Virus record (IMG/VR): IMGVR_UViG_3300008262_000768
Span: 1 to 28,601 of that record
Source: a virus
Length of the DNA: 28,601 nucleotides
Reading direction: 5' to 3' (one strand)
In this document: positions 439 to 25,763 of the stretch, piece after piece
How positions within the stretch are numbered: the first letter of the stretch is position 1
Layout of the letters: each line of letters begins with the position of its first letter
Program-made: the position numbers and the translations under genes
Notes under the pieces: generated by a model
What the model was told of the DNA's origin: nothing
What the model saw: only the letters and a program-made list of their open reading frames with translations
Databases searched by the model: none

Positions 439-597
439 TCAGAAGATATCGCTGTAATCTTTGATGCTAACATTCACATCTTCATCACCTTCTAGGTGTA
501 GGATCTCACGCCAATTGATATCTTCTAGTTCTAGATCATCATAACACATGAGGTCTAGCGTGATACGTACCACGCGCTTTGTATGTGTGTTAGGCAT
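439..597 (-). CDS. Conserved-looking acidic small protein, 52 aa
   Basis: ATG at 597, preceded by GAGATTCTT as a ribosome binding site. The product begins MPNTHTKRVVRITLDL and ends IKDYSDIF. It is strongly acidic, with DDLELED and EGDEDV stretches. From memory it resembles a small conserved cyanophage hypothetical with a WREIL core. No domain or function is recognised. It is followed by the 361-414 hairpins, so it probably ends a short transcript. Confidence 0.75.
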   Translation of the reverse strand: MPNTHTKRVVRITLDLMCYDDLELEDINWREILHLEGDEDVNVSIKDYSDIF

Positions 598-627: not shown

Positions 628-777
628 TCATGCATAATGACGATATGCAAGCGTTTCGTAATCTTGCCCATCTCGTGCATAATCCTCGTCGAGATCTGCA
701 TCTTGTGCATAATACTCGTCGAGATCGTATGTGTAATCTGATGCGTATGTATAGTCGAGATCGTAGTCGTCGTACAT
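628..777 (-). CDS. Acidic Asp/Tyr-rich repeat peptide, 49 aa
   Basis: ATG at 777 with GACGAG 4-8 nt upstream. The product is almost entirely D, E, Y, A, L and T, with two tandem units DLDEYYAQDA and DLDEDYARDG preceded by YDLDYTYASDYTYDLDE. Each DLDE is encoded by one ATCTCGACGAG palindromic repeat, so the protein repeat follows the DNA repeat. An extended -10 promoter lies 32 nt upstream. It may be a real acidic mini-protein or an accidental frame through the repeat array. No homologue recognised. Confidence 0.4.
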   Translation of the reverse strand: MYDDYDLDYTYASDYTYDLDEYYAQDADLDEDYARDGQDYETLAYRHYA

Positions 778-809
778 AATGCTCGTCGAGATTTGTATGA
801 TGCTTATGA

Positions 810-839
810 ATTATAGCATAAAGCTCGACGAGATTGCAA
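810..839 (-). promoter_or_regulatory. Extended -10 promoter with a palindrome in the spacer
   Basis: The minus strand carries TTGCAA (839-834), an 18-nt spacer, then TATAAT (815-810) preceded by TGC, an extended -10. The palindrome at 824-834 fills the spacer and the 782-792 copy lies just past the likely start site. A protein bound to the repeats would be expected to control this promoter. It would serve the 628-777 ORF. Confidence 0.5.
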
Positions 840-878
840 GCCCTTATGATGCACACGTCTCGTCGAGATTCATAAGAG

Positions 879-908
879 TATATATGCATTCTCGTCGAGA
901 TTTGTTAA
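879..908 (-). promoter_or_regulatory. Possible second promoter within the repeat array
   Basis: The minus strand reads TTAACA (908-903), an 18-nt spacer holding the 891-901 repeat, then TATATA (884-879), with an overlapping TATACT. The -35/palindrome/-10 order matches the promoter at 810-839. Weaker than that one; no clear gene starts immediately downstream of it. Confidence 0.3.
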
Positions 909-934
909 GAAATGCTTATAAGTCTCGTCGAGAT

Positions 935-1201
935 TTGTGTGGGTCTCCTGGCATTTTTGCGGCGGTGGCACTTGACAAACTGCGCGTCTTATGATACGCT
1001 CGCTTAGCTCACAAGACCCAGAGGCATTTATGAGACTTTATAAGCATTTAGAGAGCATAAAGATCGACCATTTATGAAACCTTTAGAACACCTTATTCTC
1101 AACTATATTCTCAATTGATTCTCATTAATTATCACCTTATTGAGAATGTTATAAAACACTAACATATATTTTTTAATACCTTTTTTAATTAAATTTACAT
1201 T
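935..1201. other. Gene-poor AT-rich stretch with short repeats
   Basis: No ORF here looks real. 1092-1147 has TTATTCTCAA (1093-1102), TATTCTCAA (1106-1114), GATTCTCATT (1118-1127) and the inverted CTTATTGAGAAT (1136-1147), the last identical to 379-390. TATAAGCATTTA-type words at 1020-1060 echo the spacers of the 685-934 array. 1150-1206 is almost pure A/T. The combination of iterated palindromes, AT-rich DNA and flanking repeats is origin-like, but that is inference. Confidence 0.5.
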
Positions 1202-1222
1202 AAAAAACCCCTAAAATGGGGT
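1202..1222 (-). terminator. Intrinsic terminator of the 1230-2048 gene
   Basis: The minus strand reads ACCCC-ATTTTA-GGGGT followed by a run of T. The stem is 5 bp with a 6-nt loop. It starts 7 nt past the stop codon. Confidence 0.75.
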
Positions 1223-7611: not shown

Positions 7612-8514
7612 TCAACTGTCCACCTTCACGATCAGGATCTCATGAGATTCTTTAGTATTGCTCCCACCAGATACAATACGATTATCACCAATACGTGTCT
7701 CTCCTAATTGATAGGAATAGTGCCACTCTGGGAAATACTGATCAAAATCTTTGTAGTATTCACGGATCGTCTCACAATTGTTGTAAGACAGGATAAAACT
7801 GCCTTTATGGTTGTGCAACAGATCCCTCAGTGTTTCATGATCAAAACCAGTATGATGCACGTCAATATTGCAGTTGGGATACATTCCCTTCAGCATTTTG
7901 TTATCGGAATCCTTATCCAAATAGTATGGAGGATCCAGATAAAGAAGATCACCAGAATGTTCTGGGATTACATCAACAAACGATGCCTTTTCCACATGCA
8001 GATCTTTATTCTTGTAGGATCTGATGTTGTGGACCATCTTATCCCATTTGGTCTGACTTTCATAGATCTTACTCATCCAACCCAGATACATCGGTCCATA
8101 GGACAGATTATGATTGAAATAATAGTATGCTGCAGCAGTCAGATCATCCAATTGGATTGGATCACGCTTATAATAATCAGTGTGCCAATCTTTGAGCATG
8201 TCCTGAGTATACTGCCACTGCAGCAACATTTCCTTAATCTCAGCATACTTTTCCTTGGTAGGAGTCAACTCCTGAAGTTTATCTGCCAACTCATGTGGAG
8301 AAGACAGAAGAACATTCCAGAAGTTGACCAGGGCATCAAAGATGTCGAACCCATAAACAGGAACGCCAAGTTCAGATGCCCACTTTGATTCTAAACTACC
8401 TCCACCAACAAATGGTGAGATGATACGCTGGGGATATGGTAGTCTAGGAATATATTGGGTGATAAGTTTGTATGCCTTTGACTTACCACCAGCATAGCGG
8501 AGAGGTGTCTTCAT
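7612..8514 (-). CDS. dam: D12-class DNA adenine-N6 methyltransferase, 300 aa
   Basis: Transfers methyl from S-adenosylmethionine to adenine N6 in DNA. TPLRYAGGK (3-11) is motif X, PFVGGGS (34-40) the SAM-binding motif I, and LDPPYY (193-198) catalytic motif IV. The order X-I-IV and the length (about 280-300) fit Dam/DpnIIA-type enzymes, which usually recognise GATC. The target specificity cannot be read from sequence. The ATG overlaps the stop of the GIY-YIG-like gene (ATGA), so the two are translated together, suggesting a restriction-modification pair. Could also act alone in protection or timing. ORF complete and intact. Confidence 0.9.
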   Translation of the reverse strand: MKTPLRYAGGKSKAYKLITQYIPRLPYPQRIISPFVGGGSLESKWASELGVPVYGFDIFDALVNFWNVLLSSPHELADKLQELTPTKEKYAEIKEMLLQWQYTQDMLKDWHTDYYKRDPIQLDDLTAAAYYYFNHNLSYGPMYLGWMSKIYESQTKWDKMVHNIRSYKNKDLHVEKASFVDVIPEHSGDLLYLDPPYYLDKDSDNKMLKGMYPNCNIDVHHTGFDHETLRDLLHNHKGSFILSYNNCETIREYYKDFDQYFPEWHYSYQLGETRIGDNRIVSGGSNTKESHEILIVKVDS

Positions 8515-11236: not shown

Positions 11237-11863
11237 TTAATAATGCATCTCTGCAACATATCTTTTTAGGTAATCAATCTTGACATCAACTGATAAAATA
11301 ATCCTTTCTTTTGTTCCACCATGCACAACAGAATGCTTAAGGGGTCCACCATCTTTGAATGCAAGGATCTTTCCATCTTCCCATGTTCTAGTTTGATCAC
11401 CAACTGTAATTCTACATCCAGGATCGCATGAGATTCCAAGATGCATTCTCATGTAATTATCAGTCCATCCAGTGTGAGGATTGATAACTGAACCAGGAAC
11501 CAATCTGCTGATAAAAGAATTATGAAGAACGTCTAGTTCTTCTTCATACTTTCTGAGTATTCCCGTTGTTACTGGACATTTTTTTCTAGAGTTTTCAATG
11601 ATAACTTTTAGAAATGCCATCTCTTGCTCACTAGCATAAGATGACATAAACTCACCCTCAAACTTTGTTAAAGGTGCTGCCTTCCAATAGTGCTCATATA
11701 GATTTCTACCATCAATTTGGTATCGTGGATAATCAAATAACGATAAAGGTGCCTCACAAAAGTTAAGGACTTCTTCTTTAATTACTGGATAATTTTCAAT
11801 CAGTTCATTATATACTGGAACATCTTCAAAATAAGAGTCCCAAAATGCTATTTTCTTGCTCAT
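11237..11863 (-). CDS. AspH-type 2-oxoglutarate/Fe(II) oxygenase, 208 aa (third in tandem)
   Basis: Matches the aspartyl/asparaginyl beta-hydroxylase catalytic region: H130 and H177 as the two iron ligands, R139 and H141 (MRMHLG) and R187 as 2-oxoglutarate contacts, aligned one-to-one with human AspH H679, R688, H690, H725, R735 from memory. Between them, RITVGDQTRTWEDGKILAFK is the jelly-roll core. This family hydroxylates peptide Asp/Asn, lipid A (LpxO) or small molecules. The N-terminal 110 residues are not recognised. Last of three coupled paralogues (ATGA overlaps), starting at 13221. Substrate unknown. Confidence 0.85.
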   Translation of the reverse strand: MSKKIAFWDSYFEDVPVYNELIENYPVIKEEVLNFCEAPLSLFDYPRYQIDGRNLYEHYWKAAPLTKFEGEFMSSYASEQEMAFLKVIIENSRKKCPVTTGILRKYEEELDVLHNSFISRLVPGSVINPHTGWTDNYMRMHLGISCDPGCRITVGDQTRTWEDGKILAFKDGGPLKHSVVHGGTKERIILSVDVKIDYLKRYVAEMHY

Positions 11864-12528
11864 TTTAAATACTTCTCCAGGTAACTTAACTTAAGATCAA
11901 ACGACATAACATATCTATCTTTCTTTCCATTATGGACTACACTATGATAGTATGGACCGCCATCTTTAAATGCTAATATTTTACCATTCTTCCACGTTTT
12001 TGTCACGTTTCCTACAGTTATCTGGCATCCAGGATCTTCCACAAGACACAAGTGAACTCTCATATAATCTTTAGAGTATCCTTGATGAGGTCTGATAATT
12101 GTACCAGGAGATAGCATACTTAGGAACATATTCGCAAGTATTCCTTCTTTTTCTGGTTTTTTAATAATATTATGAATTACAGGTGTTAATATCCATCGAT
12201 ACTGATCAATTAACATGTCGAGATCCTTTCCTCCCTGCAACTTCTTTACGATCATATTCACTTCATGATGATATGACTCGCTGAATCTGGAGAGAGCTAG
12301 AACATCCCAGGTATTATCATACATTCTCACCTTTTGACCAGTTTGTGGATCGGTAATCTTATACTTTGGATAAGGATTCATCCATTTGTAAGAAGATCCA
12401 CCGACCTTTGGAAATAGTTTAGATTTGATAATGAGTTCCCACTTAATGAATCTCCAATACCGCATAAATGTGCGACATATGGGCTCATCCATCAAATAAT
12501 CTTCCCAAAATTCTGGTTCTTGTGTCAT
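11860..12528 (-). CDS. AspH-type 2-oxoglutarate/Fe(II) oxygenase, 222 aa (second in tandem)
   Basis: Paralogue of its two neighbours: H148 and H195 (YYHSVVH) are iron ligands, R157 and H159 (MRVHLC) and R205 (DRYVMSFD) bind 2-oxoglutarate, so the site looks complete. TVGNVTKTWKNGKILAFKDG is the shared core. N-terminal motif NPYPKYKITDPQTGQ also occurs in the 12525 protein as NPLVVDPDTGDQ, so the N-terminal domain is homologous too. ATGA overlaps at both ends show tight coupling. Substrate unknown. Confidence 0.85.
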   Translation of the reverse strand: MTQEPEFWEDYLMDEPICRTFMRYWRFIKWELIIKSKLFPKVGGSSYKWMNPYPKYKITDPQTGQKVRMYDNTWDVLALSRFSESYHHEVNMIVKKLQGGKDLDMLIDQYRWILTPVIHNIIKKPEKEGILANMFLSMLSPGTIIRPHQGYSKDYMRVHLCLVEDPGCQITVGNVTKTWKNGKILAFKDGGPYYHSVVHNGKKDRYVMSFDLKLSYLEKYLK

Positions 12529-13199
12529 TCGATGTCAATATATTCTTTCAGGTAATCTACACTCAAGTCAAACGAAAGATAGAGTCGATCTTGGTCCTTA
12601 CTTTCATTCTTCATGCTGATAAAATATGGACCTTGATCTCGAAATGCCAGAATATCTCCATCACTCCAGGTTCGAGTCTCATCACCAACAGTAATCGTGG
12701 CAGCATCATCGTCCCAGGCAAGTCCCAGATGCACTCGTACATATTCTTTAGTCCAACCTTTATGACGATTCACCACACAACCAGGATAAAGTGTGCCGAG
12801 GAAAGCATTCGCCAGTTTCTTATCTCGTTCTGCTCTCCAGATCAGATTATGAAGTACAGGTAGACCACGCTTACGCAGTTTCCTAATAGTATCATCCAGA
12901 CTCAGATCGAGTTTCTTCTCTTGTTCTTCCTTAAATTCAAGGAACTCTGGACTTACAGACTTCTCCTCATCAACATAACCAACAGGAAGAGTTGTCCAGT
13001 TACCAGTATACAATGGATTCTGATCTCCAGTATCAGGATCCACAACCAAAGGATTGAAATAAGGAAGCGACCAGTGTGCTGCCATACCAGCAAAATGAGT
13101 CAGTTCAATATAAAGTTTATCAAAGTTTTCAATCAATGAAGCACAGATAGGTTCCTTTCCTTGCTTCAGTTTAAAATCCCAAAATGCAGGTTCTGTCAT
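12525..13199 (-). CDS. AspH-type oxygenase fold lacking the second iron ligand, 224 aa
   Basis: First gene of the three-paralogue operon, from -10 13221 with GGAGAT as ribosome site. H146, R155, H157 and R205 are conserved, but the second iron-ligand His is replaced: AFRDQGPYFISM has Ile194 where its sisters have GPLKHSVV and GPYYHSVV. Both histidines of HSVVH are gone. This predicts an inactive or altered-metal form, perhaps a regulatory or scaffold partner of the two active-looking sisters. ITVGDETRTWSDGDILAFRD keeps the fold. N-terminal domain shared with 11860. Substrate unknown. Confidence 0.85.
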   Translation of the reverse strand: MTEPAFWDFKLKQGKEPICASLIENFDKLYIELTHFAGMAAHWSLPYFNPLVVDPDTGDQNPLYTGNWTTLPVGYVDEEKSVSPEFLEFKEEQEKKLDLSLDDTIRKLRKRGLPVLHNLIWRAERDKKLANAFLGTLYPGCVVNRHKGWTKEYVRVHLGLAWDDDAATITVGDETRTWSDGDILAFRDQGPYFISMKNESKDQDRLYLSFDLSVDYLKEYIDIE

Positions 13200-13226: not shown

Positions 13227-14417
13227 TCACACTTCGATGACTTGACTGATACACTTACCACCAAAGGCAAATGAATTGTTGAGAGTGCGAAGTGTTCGGT
13301 TTGGTAGTTCTAGATTCTCCTTGACAAGACATTCTTTTCTGTCAAGTGAACATTTATTTAGGTTCTGGATGTGAGGGATGACTCTGTTCTTCATCGACTC
13401 AATTGCATAGATTGTTTCAAGAATACTAGCAGCGCCGATTGTATGCCCAATCTTACTCTTTGGTGCATAGATTGGAGTCTTATCAAGAACATCCGTGATT
13501 GCCATATATTCAATCGGATCACCAATGAATGTGGAGGTTGCATGACCCGATACAGCATCAATGATCATGGGCATAGGACTATGCATATCAGCGTTCTTCA
13601 GCGCCTTTGTAATCGCTATCTTGGCGCCTCTGGCATCAGGTGCTGGAGCAGTCATATCCAGGGCATCAGACGCCATTCCAGCGGGGTATAGAGTGGCGTG
13701 AATGGTGCTACCATACTCCTTTGCCTTCTGACTGGATTGTAGGATCAGGCATCCAGCACCATCACCCATCATGAAACCTTCACGCTTGTCATCAAATGGG
13801 CAGTTATAGTTTCCAAGGGCACCAAGTGCCTGAAAATATAACATCAGTTCCACGTTCACATTATAGTCAGACGATCCAACCACAACATATTCATATTCAT
13901 CACACAGGCGTTGAGCATACTCCATGGTAAACATTGAGGTTGCACATGATGCCAACATGGAAACAGATGCTCCCATGAATCCATAATGTCCACACAGGTG
14001 AGATGGAATCATATCAGGCAGAATGTTTACCAGTTTCCGCAGATTGATTCGCTTGTTATTATACAAATCATTTACAATCTTGTTACCTGCCTCATAGGAA
14101 TTAGAAGCAGATGAAAAGATCACGGCAACTTCCTGCTGTGGTTTCAGACCAGACATCTTAAGTGCCTGCTCTACAACATGGAATGCAAGAAGTTGTGACC
14201 TTGTGTAGGTTCGCATCAATTTGGGATCAAGATCTGGCAGTTGTAGAGTTTCATAGTCTACCATCAGACCCCTGGTGATCTTTTCACCCCGTTCAATCAT
14301 GGGATGAAAATCCACAGAATAATCTACATCATCCAAAAACCTTGGAAAACAATCGCTAGGATTGTTACCCAAAGCGTCAATCATTCCATAACCAACAACA
14401 TGGACTGGATTAACCAT
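13227..14417 (-). CDS. Beta-ketoacyl synthase (KAS I/II, FabF-like), 396 aa
   Basis: Condensing enzyme fold: joins an acyl thioester with a malonyl thioester in fatty-acid or polyketide synthesis. Catalytic set is complete: C158 (MLASCATSMF, nucleophile), H292 (SGHATST), K320 and H325 (PKSKIGHTIGAA) and the gate loop NSFAFGG (381-387). GDGAGCLIL (218-226) matches the GEGAG-type strand. Length near FabF (about 410). No acyl carrier protein, ketoreductase or malonyltransferase is visible nearby, so it would need host ACP. The usual DTAC/ACSS nucleophile context is divergent. TAATG overlap with 14417-14653. Divergent from typical FabF, so the substrate may differ. Confidence 0.88.
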   Translation of the reverse strand: MVNPVHVVGYGMIDALGNNPSDCFPRFLDDVDYSVDFHPMIERGEKITRGLMVDYETLQLPDLDPKLMRTYTRSQLLAFHVVEQALKMSGLKPQQEVAVIFSSASNSYEAGNKIVNDLYNNKRINLRKLVNILPDMIPSHLCGHYGFMGASVSMLASCATSMFTMEYAQRLCDEYEYVVVGSSDYNVNVELMLYFQALGALGNYNCPFDDKREGFMMGDGAGCLILQSSQKAKEYGSTIHATLYPAGMASDALDMTAPAPDARGAKIAITKALKNADMHSPMPMIIDAVSGHATSTFIGDPIEYMAITDVLDKTPIYAPKSKIGHTIGAASILETIYAIESMKNRVIPHIQNLNKCSLDRKECLVKENLELPNRTLRTLNNSFAFGGKCISQVIEV

Positions 14418-14653: not shown

Positions 14654-14859
14654 ACTTCAGGGTTCTCCAAGTCTTTACAACGGGGGTAGAAAATGCCATC
14701 ACGATAGCAGGCATTTTCGGGGTCTTGTGGATCATATTTTGTCACTTTTGCTGGATAATCTCTAATATTACAGAGTTCTCCTTGTCTGTGTAGGTAATTA
14801 TCAAGGCATAAACCGCCAACAAATGGAGCAAGACCTTGTAGCATATAGAGTGTATACAT
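14620..14859 (-). CDS. Hypothetical protein with hydrophobic N-terminus, 79 aa
   Basis: ATG 14859 shares an A with the upstream TGA (TGATG); a GTG at 14865 is possible. MYTLYMLQGLAPFVGGLCLD, then LHRQGELCNIRDYPAKVTKY, DPQDPENACYRDGIFYPRCK. Four cysteines, suggesting disulphides or metal, and a possible membrane-associated start. The PENACYRDGIFYPRCKDLENP part resembles a conserved cyanophage hypothetical. Overlaps the next gene by 34 nt. Function unknown. Confidence 0.75.
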   Translation of the reverse strand: MYTLYMLQGLAPFVGGLCLDNYLHRQGELCNIRDYPAKVTKYDPQDPENACYRDGIFYPRCKDLENPEVWHYHNLLKNR

Positions 14860-15488
14860 CAGCACTCATCAGATCCAAGTGGTTTAGTAGATTTACGAAT
14901 GGTATAAGAACCATCGTTGTTATCAATCCAATGGACTGCATCACCTTCTTTGAGGTCTGCTGCTTCTAACAAGTCTTGTGGGAATGAAACAAAGTATTCT
15001 GTTTCATCAGTATCCATATCCTTTGCTTCTTGAACAGGAAGAATCCATCGGGTCACAACATCTTTTTTGACTTCTGGTGTCCATTCATATCCACCTGCTT
15101 TACGGATTTCTTCTACTTGAGCATCAAGTTCTGCTTTATCACACATCGCATCAAGTTCTTCATCAGTATATCGCACACTACTTACAGTCGTGCCCCAATC
15201 TTGAGAAAGATACTCTAAGTCACTATGTCCCCAAGGAGGCATACAATCTTCTTCTAATTTTTTATTTTCTTTTACTACAGTTTCCTGCCAAGCAAGTTTA
15301 AACTTCTCATCAAACTCGCTCAGATAATACTCAAGAAACTCATACGCAGCAGACATCATAGTTTCTGCTTTATCATACTGATGTTCTTGAATTTTATCGA
15401 TCGCAGCGTCAATAATCTCACGAGCGGAACAAATCTTGGATGTTACCATCTCAAGATCGTTCATTGTGTCCCATACTTTACTTACCAT
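14859..15488 (-). CDS. AbrB-like C-terminal domain with helical N-terminus, 209 aa
   Basis: ATG 15488 is preferred to TTG 15509, giving an 11-nt overlap with the upstream gene. Residues about 8-75 are helical (ARE IIDAAIDKIQEHQYDKAE). The C-terminal 55 residues (YFVSFPQDLLEAADLKEGDA, VHWIDNNDGSYTIRK) have the swapped-hairpin pattern of AbrB/MazE-type domains, which bind DNA or toxins. Such a domain could be a regulator. Cys residues are sparse. Confidence in the AbrB resemblance is moderate. Confidence 0.7.
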   Translation of the reverse strand: MVSKVWDTMNDLEMVTSKICSAREIIDAAIDKIQEHQYDKAETMMSAAYEFLEYYLSEFDEKFKLAWQETVVKENKKLEEDCMPPWGHSDLEYLSQDWGTTVSSVRYTDEELDAMCDKAELDAQVEEIRKAGGYEWTPEVKKDVVTRWILPVQEAKDMDTDETEYFVSFPQDLLEAADLKEGDAVHWIDNNDGSYTIRKSTKPLGSDEC

Positions 15489-15645
15489 GACGTTTGAGTT
15501 CTTCTTCAATTGCTTGCTGTACTATAACTGAAACTTCTTTGGATGTCAACCCATTCAACCATTTCCAGTTTGGGTCTTCTGGATCCCAGTCCATTGTGAA
15601 CGACCCATCCTCATTCTGTGTTATCTTAAGACTATCAGCAGTCAT
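15478..15645 (-). CDS. Hypothetical small protein, 55 aa
   Basis: MTADSLKITQNEDGSFTMDW, then DPEDPNWKWLNGLTSKEVSV and IVQQAIEEELKRHGK. A beta-hairpin-like front end (ITQNEDGSFTMDWDP) followed by an amphipathic helix. Overlaps its neighbours by 11 nt each side. The SFTMDWDPEDPNWKWLN pattern recalls a conserved cyanophage protein. Function unknown. Confidence 0.75.
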   Translation of the reverse strand: MTADSLKITQNEDGSFTMDWDPEDPNWKWLNGLTSKEVSVIVQQAIEEELKRHGK

Positions 15646-19080: not shown

Positions 19081-19554
19081 TTATTCTCCAAGTGTATGAA
19101 TGACTGGTTTTTCGTGTGCTAGAATATGATATAGATCTTTATTTTTTGCTGCTGATACTGGAACAAACTCCGTCTCTGGATCAAACTCATCATCACGAAT
19201 GGCTTGATTGATGACAATAGAACCATCAGCACCAGAATATGAACGATGGAAAGTCATTTTAGGGATGACTAGAGCGCCTGAACTGCGATTTAAATGAACG
19301 ATATGGTAAGGGTAACGCCATTCTGGATTGACAAGTTCAAATGTGCGAAGTCCAGATAGCACACGATTGTGGTCTATCTGGTGATAGTGAATATAAAATT
19401 GTTTGGCGCCTACAATATCATCTGGTGGTGAGATAGCAGCACCAGTATGACATACAAGGTCTTGTGCATTAGATCCATCTACTGAAATATCATAGAATAC
19501 AACCGCTTCTGTTTCACGGAATACTCTGTGTTTTTTGAATTGAACTTCGCTCAT
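19081..19554 (-). CDS. Cupin-like protein, 157 aa
   Basis: MSEVQFKKHRVFRETEAVVF, then FYIHYHQIDHNRVLSGLRTF, WRYPYHIVHLNRSSGALVIP, KMTFHRSYSGADGSIVINQA. HYHQIDHNR with a later His (TFHRS) resembles the metal-site pattern of a cupin barrel, in strand-rich sequence. It recalls a family seen in cyanophage genomes. Function (isomerase, epimerase, dioxygenase or binding) is not determined. TAATG overlap with the next gene. Confidence 0.6.
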   Translation of the reverse strand: MSEVQFKKHRVFRETEAVVFYDISVDGSNAQDLVCHTGAAISPPDDIVGAKQFYIHYHQIDHNRVLSGLRTFELVNPEWRYPYHIVHLNRSSGALVIPKMTFHRSYSGADGSIVINQAIRDDEFDPETEFVPVSAAKNKDLYHILAHEKPVIHTLGE

Positions 19555-19748
19555 TAGTCGTAAACGTTTTGCTCCTGTTGTATTCTATCTAGGTGATGGT
19601 AAATCGTCTCTTGAGAGTACTTAAATTCTTCAAATCTTTGTGGATTATTTTTCTGCATTTTGGTAAGCATATTAATCCATTGATATCGACTATCAACGAC
19701 CCAACCATAACGTCGTTCGTCTTGCATCATGTCGTAAATGGAAATCAT
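19554..19748 (-). CDS. Hypothetical small protein, 64 aa
   Basis: MISIYDMMQDERRYGWVVDS, RYQWINMLTKMQKNNPQRFE, EFKYSQETIYHHLDRIQQEQ. All-helical and polar. TAATG coupling to the cupin-like gene and ATGA coupling upstream. Function unknown. Confidence 0.75.
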   Translation of the reverse strand: MISIYDMMQDERRYGWVVDSRYQWINMLTKMQKNNPQRFEEFKYSQETIYHHLDRIQQEQNVYD

Positions 19749-24200: not shown

Positions 24201-24397
24201 TGTACTTTCCTCTTTTTTAAGTAATGATGGTTTTCAGAATCAAAGATTGTCCATTTTGCTATTTTAAGACACATTAGCACAGTTTGGTGCTCTCTCTGAT
24301 ACAAGTCCCAATCTTCTTTAAGTTTTGCAGCGTGTCTTCTACGATAGGCACAGCACCAAACATTTTTATAAATTTGTGCTTTTTCGGTTAAAGTCAT
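24197..24397 (-). CDS. Basic small protein, 66 aa
   Basis: MTLTEKAQIYKNVWCCAYRR, RHAAKLKEDWDLYQREHQTV, LMCLKIAKWTIFDSENHHYL. Basic with three cysteines (CC pair). Helical. Coupled to the 24394 oxygenase gene by an ATGA overlap and to 24006 by TTGA. Function unknown. Confidence 0.75.
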   Translation of the reverse strand: MTLTEKAQIYKNVWCCAYRRRHAAKLKEDWDLYQREHQTVLMCLKIAKWTIFDSENHHYLKKRKVH

Positions 24398-25104
24398 CCC
24401 AAACTTCTCAAAAAATCTTTGTCAATTTCCTGATCAAAACAGAGGCAGTATCTTGGTGTAGATAATTCATTTTCTACTTTATGGCGAATTCTACCCCAAA
24501 AGAACATGTGTTGATTGTTTACGAACAATCTTTTCTCTGCTTTTTCTCTATTGTTACCAAACATTAGATAACATTCTTTACCTTCTTCCTGACGAACATC
24601 AAGTCCCCAGAGACCACGAATAATTGCTAGATTATCACGTTCTGGATCTGGATCAAGATGCCAACCAATACCTTTACCAGGACCAACCATACTAATACCA
24701 AATCTTCTCTTAATTCCAGCCTCTCTCATTGTTGATGTGAGAATAGGAAGTAATTCAGAGTTTTCTCTGTGATATCCAATTTTTTCTTCTTTAACAAAAA
24801 TTGGATCTCCAAAGTTTTTGCCAATAATTGTGGGTGCTATTTTAACAAATGAGTCCCATTCATCATCAGTGATTAGTTTTGCACTAAAGGGATCTCTACA
24901 CTCCATAAAGATCGGAGCAATTTGCCAACCAGCATAAGCAATTGCAGTATGACCAGAATACCCAGTATCATATCCCCAGTTACACCAATAAATCTTATCG
25001 AAATTGTCAAGAAATTCTTTTTGAATCTCTTCAAATCTTTCCTCAACAAGTTTAAGTTTTGGATTTAACTCCTCAAGAGTAAAGAAACGATCTATTTTAT
25101 TCAT
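24394..25104 (-). CDS. 2OG-Fe(II) oxygenase, AspH/PHM-like, 236 aa
   Basis: H149-L-D151 (IGWHLDPD) is the facial triad start, H208 (RIRHKVEN) the distal ligand and R218 (TPRYCLCFD) the 2-oxoglutarate Arg, with R163 (IIRGLWGLDV) in the core. MFFWGRIRHKVEN matches this group. The N-terminal 120 residues share helices with the 25101 protein, so the two are paralogues: LKLVEERFEEIQKEFLDN versus LQILSDNFDSIHDEFVTN. Coupled to it by ATGA. Substrate unknown. Confidence 0.82.
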   Translation of the reverse strand: MNKIDRFFTLEELNPKLKLVEERFEEIQKEFLDNFDKIYWCNWGYDTGYSGHTAIAYAGWQIAPIFMECRDPFSAKLITDDEWDSFVKIAPTIIGKNFGDPIFVKEEKIGYHRENSELLPILTSTMREAGIKRRFGISMVGPGKGIGWHLDPDPERDNLAIIRGLWGLDVRQEEGKECYLMFGNNREKAEKRLFVNNQHMFFWGRIRHKVENELSTPRYCLCFDQEIDKDFLRSLG

Positions 25105-25763
25105 AGCATACTTCTAAAAAATACATTTGGTTTATTATTAATGTGTGCAAGACTTTTAGAGGCAAACACATCCATTGCTATCACTGTTCTTGGTTGAGAC
25201 ATCATATTCTCAACACGATGAGTAGTATTTGAGTCAAAAGTATAAAACTTATTGTTCTCAAACAATTGAGTTTCTACATTTCCAGATTCATCTTTCATTT
25301 GAAAGATCGAATATTTATCTTCTTCTACTGGAACATCAATTCCCCACAAAACACGATAGGTATTCAATCCTCCACCACCATAATCCTTATCACAATGCCA
25401 ATCTAATGAAGCTCCTGGATGTAATACGTTGATTCCCGCAACTAATACTGCTTTAATGGAAGAAAGTGTTTGACATAATATAGGAAGGTACATTGCATTG
25501 CATGGATGAAATACTCCATGGTAACTCAATGCTCCCATATGCCATCCAATATCACTATTGGTTTGCTTGGCATCCAAATAACTATTGAATTGAATTGGAA
25601 ATCCTCTTTTATTTTGTGTAATATATTCCTTTTGTTGATCTGTAAAATCCCTAATTTCTAGAGATTCTCGATTTGTGACAAACTCATCGTGAATTGAATC
25701 AAAATTGTCGGATAATATCTGCAATTCTGGTAGAATCTCTTTATAGTCTAAGAAGAGAGACAT
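25101..25763 (-). CDS. 2OG-Fe(II) oxygenase, AspH/PHM-like, 220 aa
   Basis: H123-C-D125 (LDWHCDKDYG), R137 (TYRVLWGIDV), H182 (NTTHRVEN) and R192 (QPRTVIAMDV) make a complete iron and 2-oxoglutarate site. PGASLDWHCDKDY and FENNKFYTFDSNTTHRVEN are typical. Paralogue of the 24394 protein. It follows the 25765 gene after 1 nt, so three oxygenases of at least two types are co-transcribed. Substrate unknown. Confidence 0.82.
   Translation of the reverse strand: MSLFLDYKEILPELQILSDNFDSIHDEFVTNRESLEIRDFTDQQKEYITQNKRGFPIQFNSYLDAKQTNSDIGWHMGALSYHGVFHPCNAMYLPILCQTLSSIKAVLVAGINVLHPGASLDWHCDKDYGGGGLNTYRVLWGIDVPVEEDKYSIFQMKDESGNVETQLFENNKFYTFDSNTTHRVENMMSQPRTVIAMDVFASKSLAHINNKPNVFFRSML

Follow-up and report, generated by a model that had tools for sequence, protein, structure and literature searches.

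What is the function of an array of short palindromes that lies in a long, largely gene-poor stretch of a viral contig, and does it mark a place where early transcription is controlled, where replication begins, or both? The array lies near the start of IMG/VR record IMGVR_UViG_3300008262_000768 (positions 1 to 28,601; we refer to this whole stretch of 28,601 nucleotides as the window). We think it probable, although with limited confidence, that the palindromes are helically phased sites for a phage protein of the MazE/AbrB fold, within a conserved early-control region of the Kyanoviridae that is also a probable origin of replication.

The array and its surroundings in the window

Seven copies of CTCGWCGAG start at positions 685, 715, 782, 824, 859, 891 and 924 of the window. 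Six of them are the exact 11-mer CTCGTCGAGAT and the seventh is CTCGACGAGAT, with a degenerate eighth copy, TAGTCGAGAT, at 752-761. When one mismatch was allowed, just two extra matches were found elsewhere in the window, both of them scattered, and the resulting count of nine compares with a mean of 2.0 and a maximum of five in dinucleotide shuffles. The array described in the initial annotation is thus present and exceeds all shuffles. The start of a 65,972-base contig, IMGVR_UViG_3300008111_000048, matches the array and the adjoining gene. An Rfam search of the window for an RNA family or riboswitch gave no match. The features of the region are as follows:

439-597, minus strand: ORF2, 52 aa, PHROG 12516, kept in many Kyanoviridae
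628-777, minus strand: ORF1, 49 aa, acidic and Tyr-rich, in which in-frame palindromes read LDE
685-932, minus strand: array of seven CTCGWCGAG copies and one degenerate copy (motif scan; sense orientation ATCTCGWCGAG)
810-839, minus strand: predicted forward promoter, TTGCAA-18-TATAAT (10/12, TG before the -10), with the palindrome at 824-832 in its spacer
963-1192, minus strand: conserved core, from the AT-rich block to the divergent promoter (profile match at locus L057, 1192-963, E 1.6e-39, with the window sequence itself among the training sequences of the profile and the coordinates taken from a contig that begins with the window's bases)
972-1000, plus strand: predicted divergent sigma70-like promoter, TTGACA-17-TACGCT, facing the AT-rich block (alignment)
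1080-1201, no strand: AT-rich block, a candidate unwinding element and the AT peak of the window (AT content)
1202-1222, minus strand: predicted intrinsic terminator of the upstream gene at 1230-2048 (terminator/promoter scan)

Read along the minus strand, the order is therefore terminator, AT-rich block, divergent promoter, array, ORF1 and ORF2. That a very AT-rich tract adjoins the array at about 1080-1200 had been pointed out before and agrees with the AT peak located here. The description of the stretch as gene-poor is only partly right, as ORF1 and ORF2, which are conserved but shorter than the length limit of the first ORF list, had been overlooked. ORF1 itself contains three of the copies, those at 685 and 715 and the degenerate one at 752, and palindromes within ORF1 are in the L-D-E frame in 12 of 12 cases. 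A Pfam scan of ORF1 and ORF2 showed in neither of them the Rep initiator domain that would be expected beside the origin of an iteron plasmid.

Palindromes had also been placed within the spacers of two promoters. The one at 810-839 stood up, on the minus strand, whereas the one at 879-908 fell below the scan threshold. Because one palindrome lies between the -35 and the -10 of the forward promoter, binding there would be expected to switch this promoter off. The -35 of the divergent promoter is kept in all eight of the phages aligned; its -10 is poor in the window, below the scan threshold, and better (TAGAAT) in S-SRM01 and S-SM2. On the plus strand 3' of this promoter there is no ORF up to the terminator.

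(Several other minus-strand genes of the window were noted in passing. A 396-aa protein at 13227-14417 resembles beta-ketoacyl synthases by eye, three tandem paralogous small proteins at 11237-13199 and two more such tandem paralogues at 24394-25763 resemble 2OG/aspartyl hydroxylases by eye, and 7612-8514 encodes a D12-class DNA adenine methyltransferase with a Pfam E-value of 1.9e-24.)

Distribution of the motif and of the surrounding module

We searched IMG/VR for two copies of CTCGWCGAG spaced 15-40 nt apart. This motif pair occurs in at least 120 loci, and a control palindrome of the same composition matched none, on which basis a chance origin of the array was rejected. Within long genomes the copies are restricted to a single region that does not exceed about 10 kb: in S-SRM01 all 11 copies lie at 85.6-91.0 kb of a 241-kb genome, and in the scanned IMG/VR contigs of 115-236 kb every copy except one lies within a single small region. 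The copies are thus not spread at random through coding DNA, a pattern that had been named as one that would speak against the proposal, and the motif is present in related phages. P-SSM2 has chiefly a variant palindrome, TCTCGACTAGA, at one site only; in S-T4 TCTCGACTAGA and CTCGWCGAG occur together, again at one site that is seen twice because the record repeats the stretch; and S-SKS1 has two exact copies together with TGTATCTCGT repeats. In both P-SSM2 and S-T4 the site is the module described below. The initial annotation knew of no such array in cyanophages, in agreement with the open-access literature, in which we found neither the region nor DnaA boxes described for such phages; P-SSM2, S-T4, S-SRM01 and S-SKS1 carry the array unremarked. 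(Note that in the S-T4 record, MH412654, the module and ORF2 are found with identical scores at 2.5-3.2 kb and at 174.1-174.7 kb, which suggests that the end of the public record is duplicated.)

The array is accompanied by conserved surroundings. A profile of the module was built from an alignment of eight phages and runs from the AT-rich block through the divergent promoter. In 105 of the 120 listed IMG/VR loci, which had been picked by the motif alone, it matched at a distance of no more than 600 nt upstream of the array, and it gave no matches in a reversed-sequence control. Similarly, of the 501 motif copies near the module in the listed loci, 447 are oriented with the AT flank on their upstream side, as read along the sense strand. 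(Note that the loci are related to each other, and these counts are therefore not independent.) In S-SRM01, S-SKS1 and S-T4 the array is immediately followed by homologues of ORF1 and ORF2. The module is also found in P-SSM2 (65.7-66.2 kb), Bellamy and S-SCSM1, with weak similarity in S-PM2 (19.2-19.4 kb), Syn9 (52.5-52.7 kb) and Sf-FP1, and lies at 58.0-58.2 kb in S-SM2. When a profile was built from only those phages that are free of DnaA boxes, its best match in the genomes of S-PM2 and Syn9 was still at the module, with E-values that are non-significant. In annotated genomes where both are seen, the module is located about 3-11 kb upstream of gp25-gp6. Judged from these alignments, the array belongs to an apparent control region that is conserved across T4-like cyanophages.

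In the T4 gene order, oriE, with its genes repEA and repEB, lies within reach of the baseplate genes, as the module also does here. The PeSL mobile promoter cassettes of T4-type phages likewise bring early promoters into plastic regions of small genes. They occur, however, as many dispersed copies, whereas the module is in fixed synteny near gp25-gp6, and the palindromes described here are too short for RNA stem-loops.

Other repeats were observed at or near the module in some phages. S-SRM01 has secondary clusters of two or three palindromes at 88,165-88,252 and 90,908-91,005, between the module and the MazE/AbrB-like gene described below; loci L264 and L300 likewise have secondary clusters, and none of these lies in a promoter spacer. 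S-PM2 (AJ630128) has a different array at the module, with six of the seven genome copies of TTAAGATTT within 400 bp (19,440-19,650), in a palindromic context and directly after three DnaA boxes, and Sf-FP1 (locus L334, 16,130-16,510) resembles this arrangement. In S-CAM7 (KU686213), repeats of the CGCAGCATATA type at 56,060-56,220, just 5' of ORF2, may be a replacement array.

Helical phasing, promoter overlap and a linked MazE/AbrB-like gene

Among 82 non-redundant arrays, the spacings between neighbouring palindromes peak near 22-25, 30-33, 39-44 and 60-62 bp, that is, close to integral numbers of helical turns (Rayleigh test, p about 7e-6 for a period of 10.5 bp, and somewhat stronger for 9.5-10 bp). 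A palindrome lies within the spacer of a sense-strand promoter, counted at a match of at least 9/12, in 13 of 30 non-redundant module arrays, and two of these 13 promoters are a perfect TTGACA-17-TATAAT; in P-SSM2 it is the variant palindrome that is found inside a perfect TTGACA-17-TATAAT spacer. By contrast, none of 27 secondary clusters has a palindrome in a promoter spacer, and repression of a promoter alone therefore cannot account for all of the copies.

Comparing phages with and without the motif drew attention to a protein of about 57 aa (PHROG 661), encoded downstream of the array on the same strand. Instances are S-SRM01 QPX48150, S-SKS1 at 144.9 kb, S-T4 at 171.4 kb and P-SSM2 PSSM2_102, and the protein is also encoded in G003, a long contig that is the window's close relative; the window contig itself stops before the expected position, so that the gene is known from relatives alone. 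This comparison is weak on its own because hundreds of ORFs were screened. The reverse test took 80 IMG/VR loci picked solely for encoding the protein: the array was found upstream in all 19 loci with at least 8 kb of upstream sequence and in 26 of 28 with at least 5 kb, with 150 motif copies upstream of the gene versus two downstream. Since these loci are related, the result represents strong linkage rather than 19 independent events.

The predicted fold of the protein is a short helix flanked by strands (mean pLDDT 79), and its best fold matches in the PDB are MazE, AbrB and SpoVT, with probabilities of 0.8-1.0 and weak E-values of 0.05 and above. The Pfam match to MazE (E 7e-4) is under the curated cut-off, and a sequence search of the PDB found no relative, only fold comparison giving matches. 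The likeness to MazE, AbrB and SpoVT and their operators would thus lie in a small, predicted dimer-type beta-hairpin DNA-binding fold and in palindromic sites that overlap a promoter, which are present here; the differences are that no toxin partner was identified, that the phased arrays are far longer and that they lie in the early region of a lytic phage.

Some phages have the protein and lack the motif: Sf-CH8 has both the protein and the module with CTCGWCGAG absent, and S-CAM7 and ACG-2014f encode distant homologues and have no CTCGWCGAG. Two other candidates for a binder were considered. ORF2 was disfavoured as the specific binder because it is found in palindrome-free phages too, and a larger window protein (14859-15509, minus strand, 216 aa) was set aside in favour of the array-linked protein. 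(Its C-terminus is weakly MazE-like, again PHROG 661, and it may be a second regulator of the same fold.)

Operator, origin or both

Features expected of an origin were found at the module in some of these phages. The cyanobacterial DnaA box is TTTTCCACA (PMC4674748), and the densest cluster of TTWTCCACA in the whole genome is located at the module in S-SKS1 (three of nine copies, spaced 21 nt), DSL-LC03 (seven of 13), S-SM2 (two of four, spaced 21 nt), S-PM2 (three of nine) and Syn9 (two of four); Sf-FP1 has three DnaA boxes at the module, spaced 12 nt. No DnaA box was found at the module in the window's lineage (G003), S-SRM01 or S-T4, and boxes are absent there from about half of the isolates checked. 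No site of S-SRM01 is richer in AT than this block, which also ranks as one of the four most AT-rich sites of S-SM2, SynMITS9220M01, Sf-CH8 and the long contig G003; it is not a top AT site in LC03, S-T4, S-PM2 or Syn9. As in an oriC, then, an AT-rich element judged by AT content lies beside the site, and six sister phages have clustered TTTTCCACA boxes next to it; unlike the cyanobacterial oriC, the module is not beside dnaN or dnaA, and the window itself has no DnaA box. Moreover, cumulative GC skew has no consistent switch at the module in ten phage records and one long contig. GC skew gives an origin no support, and the switch that the initial annotation had predicted for one did not appear. 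Its two proposals, an operator array and origin iterons by the AT-rich tract, otherwise both gain support and may both hold.

The nearest known arrangement, by analogy, is T4 oriE, where evenly spaced 12-nt direct repeats accompany an early promoter and the role of the repeats is also unproven (PMC3016281). Here too a cluster of short, evenly spaced direct repeats adjoins small early genes and a promoter of the early host sigma70 type as judged by consensus (TTGCAA-18-TATAAT in the window, perfect in P-SSM2). The cyanophage module differs in that its repeats are palindromic, with one of them between the hexamers of a promoter, in that a second, divergent promoter points into the AT-rich block, in the host DnaA boxes of sister phages and in the linkage to a gene for a predicted MazE/AbrB fold.

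If the array were purely an operator of an early promoter, with the protein autoregulating the early operon and with the AT-rich block and divergent promoter serving transcription, then the palindromes in promoter spacers and the missing GC-skew switch would be as expected. We consider this unlikely, although a reading to be taken seriously, given that the same module has host DnaA-box clusters in six sister phages, that the AT-rich block is an AT extreme in several genomes, that the divergent promoter has no ORF and that secondary clusters lie outside promoters. Alternatively, the palindromes might be true iterons that load an initiator, either the MazE/AbrB-like protein or some other factor of the phage, in place of the DnaA boxes of sister phages, their overlap with promoters being secondary. 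The direct, phased repeats do adjoin an AT-rich block, as in iteron plasmid origins, some phages have DnaA boxes without palindromes and others the reverse, and a comparable repeat cluster exists in T4 oriE (PMC3016281). Yet the divergent promoter separates the palindromes from the DnaA boxes, and S-SKS1 and about 10 of 105 contigs have both, for which reasons a simple positional replacement of DnaA boxes was rejected; the predicted fold of the linked protein is that of a regulator and not of a known initiator. True iterons thus appear improbable.

It is very unlikely that the array is a site of partition, packaging or recombination that lies within a regulatory region by chance. Such a site could well consist of phased clusters, of which as many as three occur in a stretch of about 10 kb, but the association with promoters and small early genes is fixed, and an unsystematic view of the neighbourhood revealed no par-like gene pair. 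That the palindromes merely encode acidic L-D-E stretches of a small protein would accord with the constant frame of the copies inside ORF1. We nevertheless reject this reading as scarcely credible because most of the palindromes are found in promoter spacers and other non-coding DNA, with helically phased spacing; moreover, ORF1 of Sf-CH8 and of S-SKS1 has no internal palindrome.

Our preferred reading, an array of phased sites for a MazE/AbrB-fold protein within a control and probable origin region, suggests the following course of events. Just after infection, host sigma70-type RNA polymerase would fire two back-to-back promoters. The forward promoter would drive ORF1-ORF2 and the early small-gene operon, and the non-coding transcript of the divergent promoter would enter the AT-rich block, where it could prime or open replication in the manner of a T4-like R-loop; in some phages, host DnaA on the boxes in the AT-rich block may assist this opening. 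The MazE/AbrB-like protein, encoded about 2-10 kb down the same strand, would occupy the palindromes cooperatively along a single face of the helix and, as its level rises, would shut the forward promoter off. The array with its orientation, phasing and confinement, the conservation of the module, the clusters of DnaA boxes and the linkage to the MazE/AbrB-like gene can be read directly from the sequences; protein binding, promoter repression and origin activity are what we infer from the arrangement. More tentatively, the one syntenic module may be the first candidate replication origin common to T4-like cyanophages, with host DnaA boxes in some, a phased array of operators for the MazE/AbrB fold in others, and a conserved promoter that sends non-coding RNA into the unwinding element.

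In the open-access literature we found no report of a replication start site in T4-like cyanophages, nor of a phage protein that regulates their early genes. With the exact coordinates of the module in cultured phages and a small candidate protein, both questions become open to experiment, and time courses of infection that already exist could be re-examined at these coordinates. T4 replication, as commonly described, is not tied to the host initiator; in lytic T4-like phages such as these, clusters of host DnaA boxes would link phage replication to that initiator.
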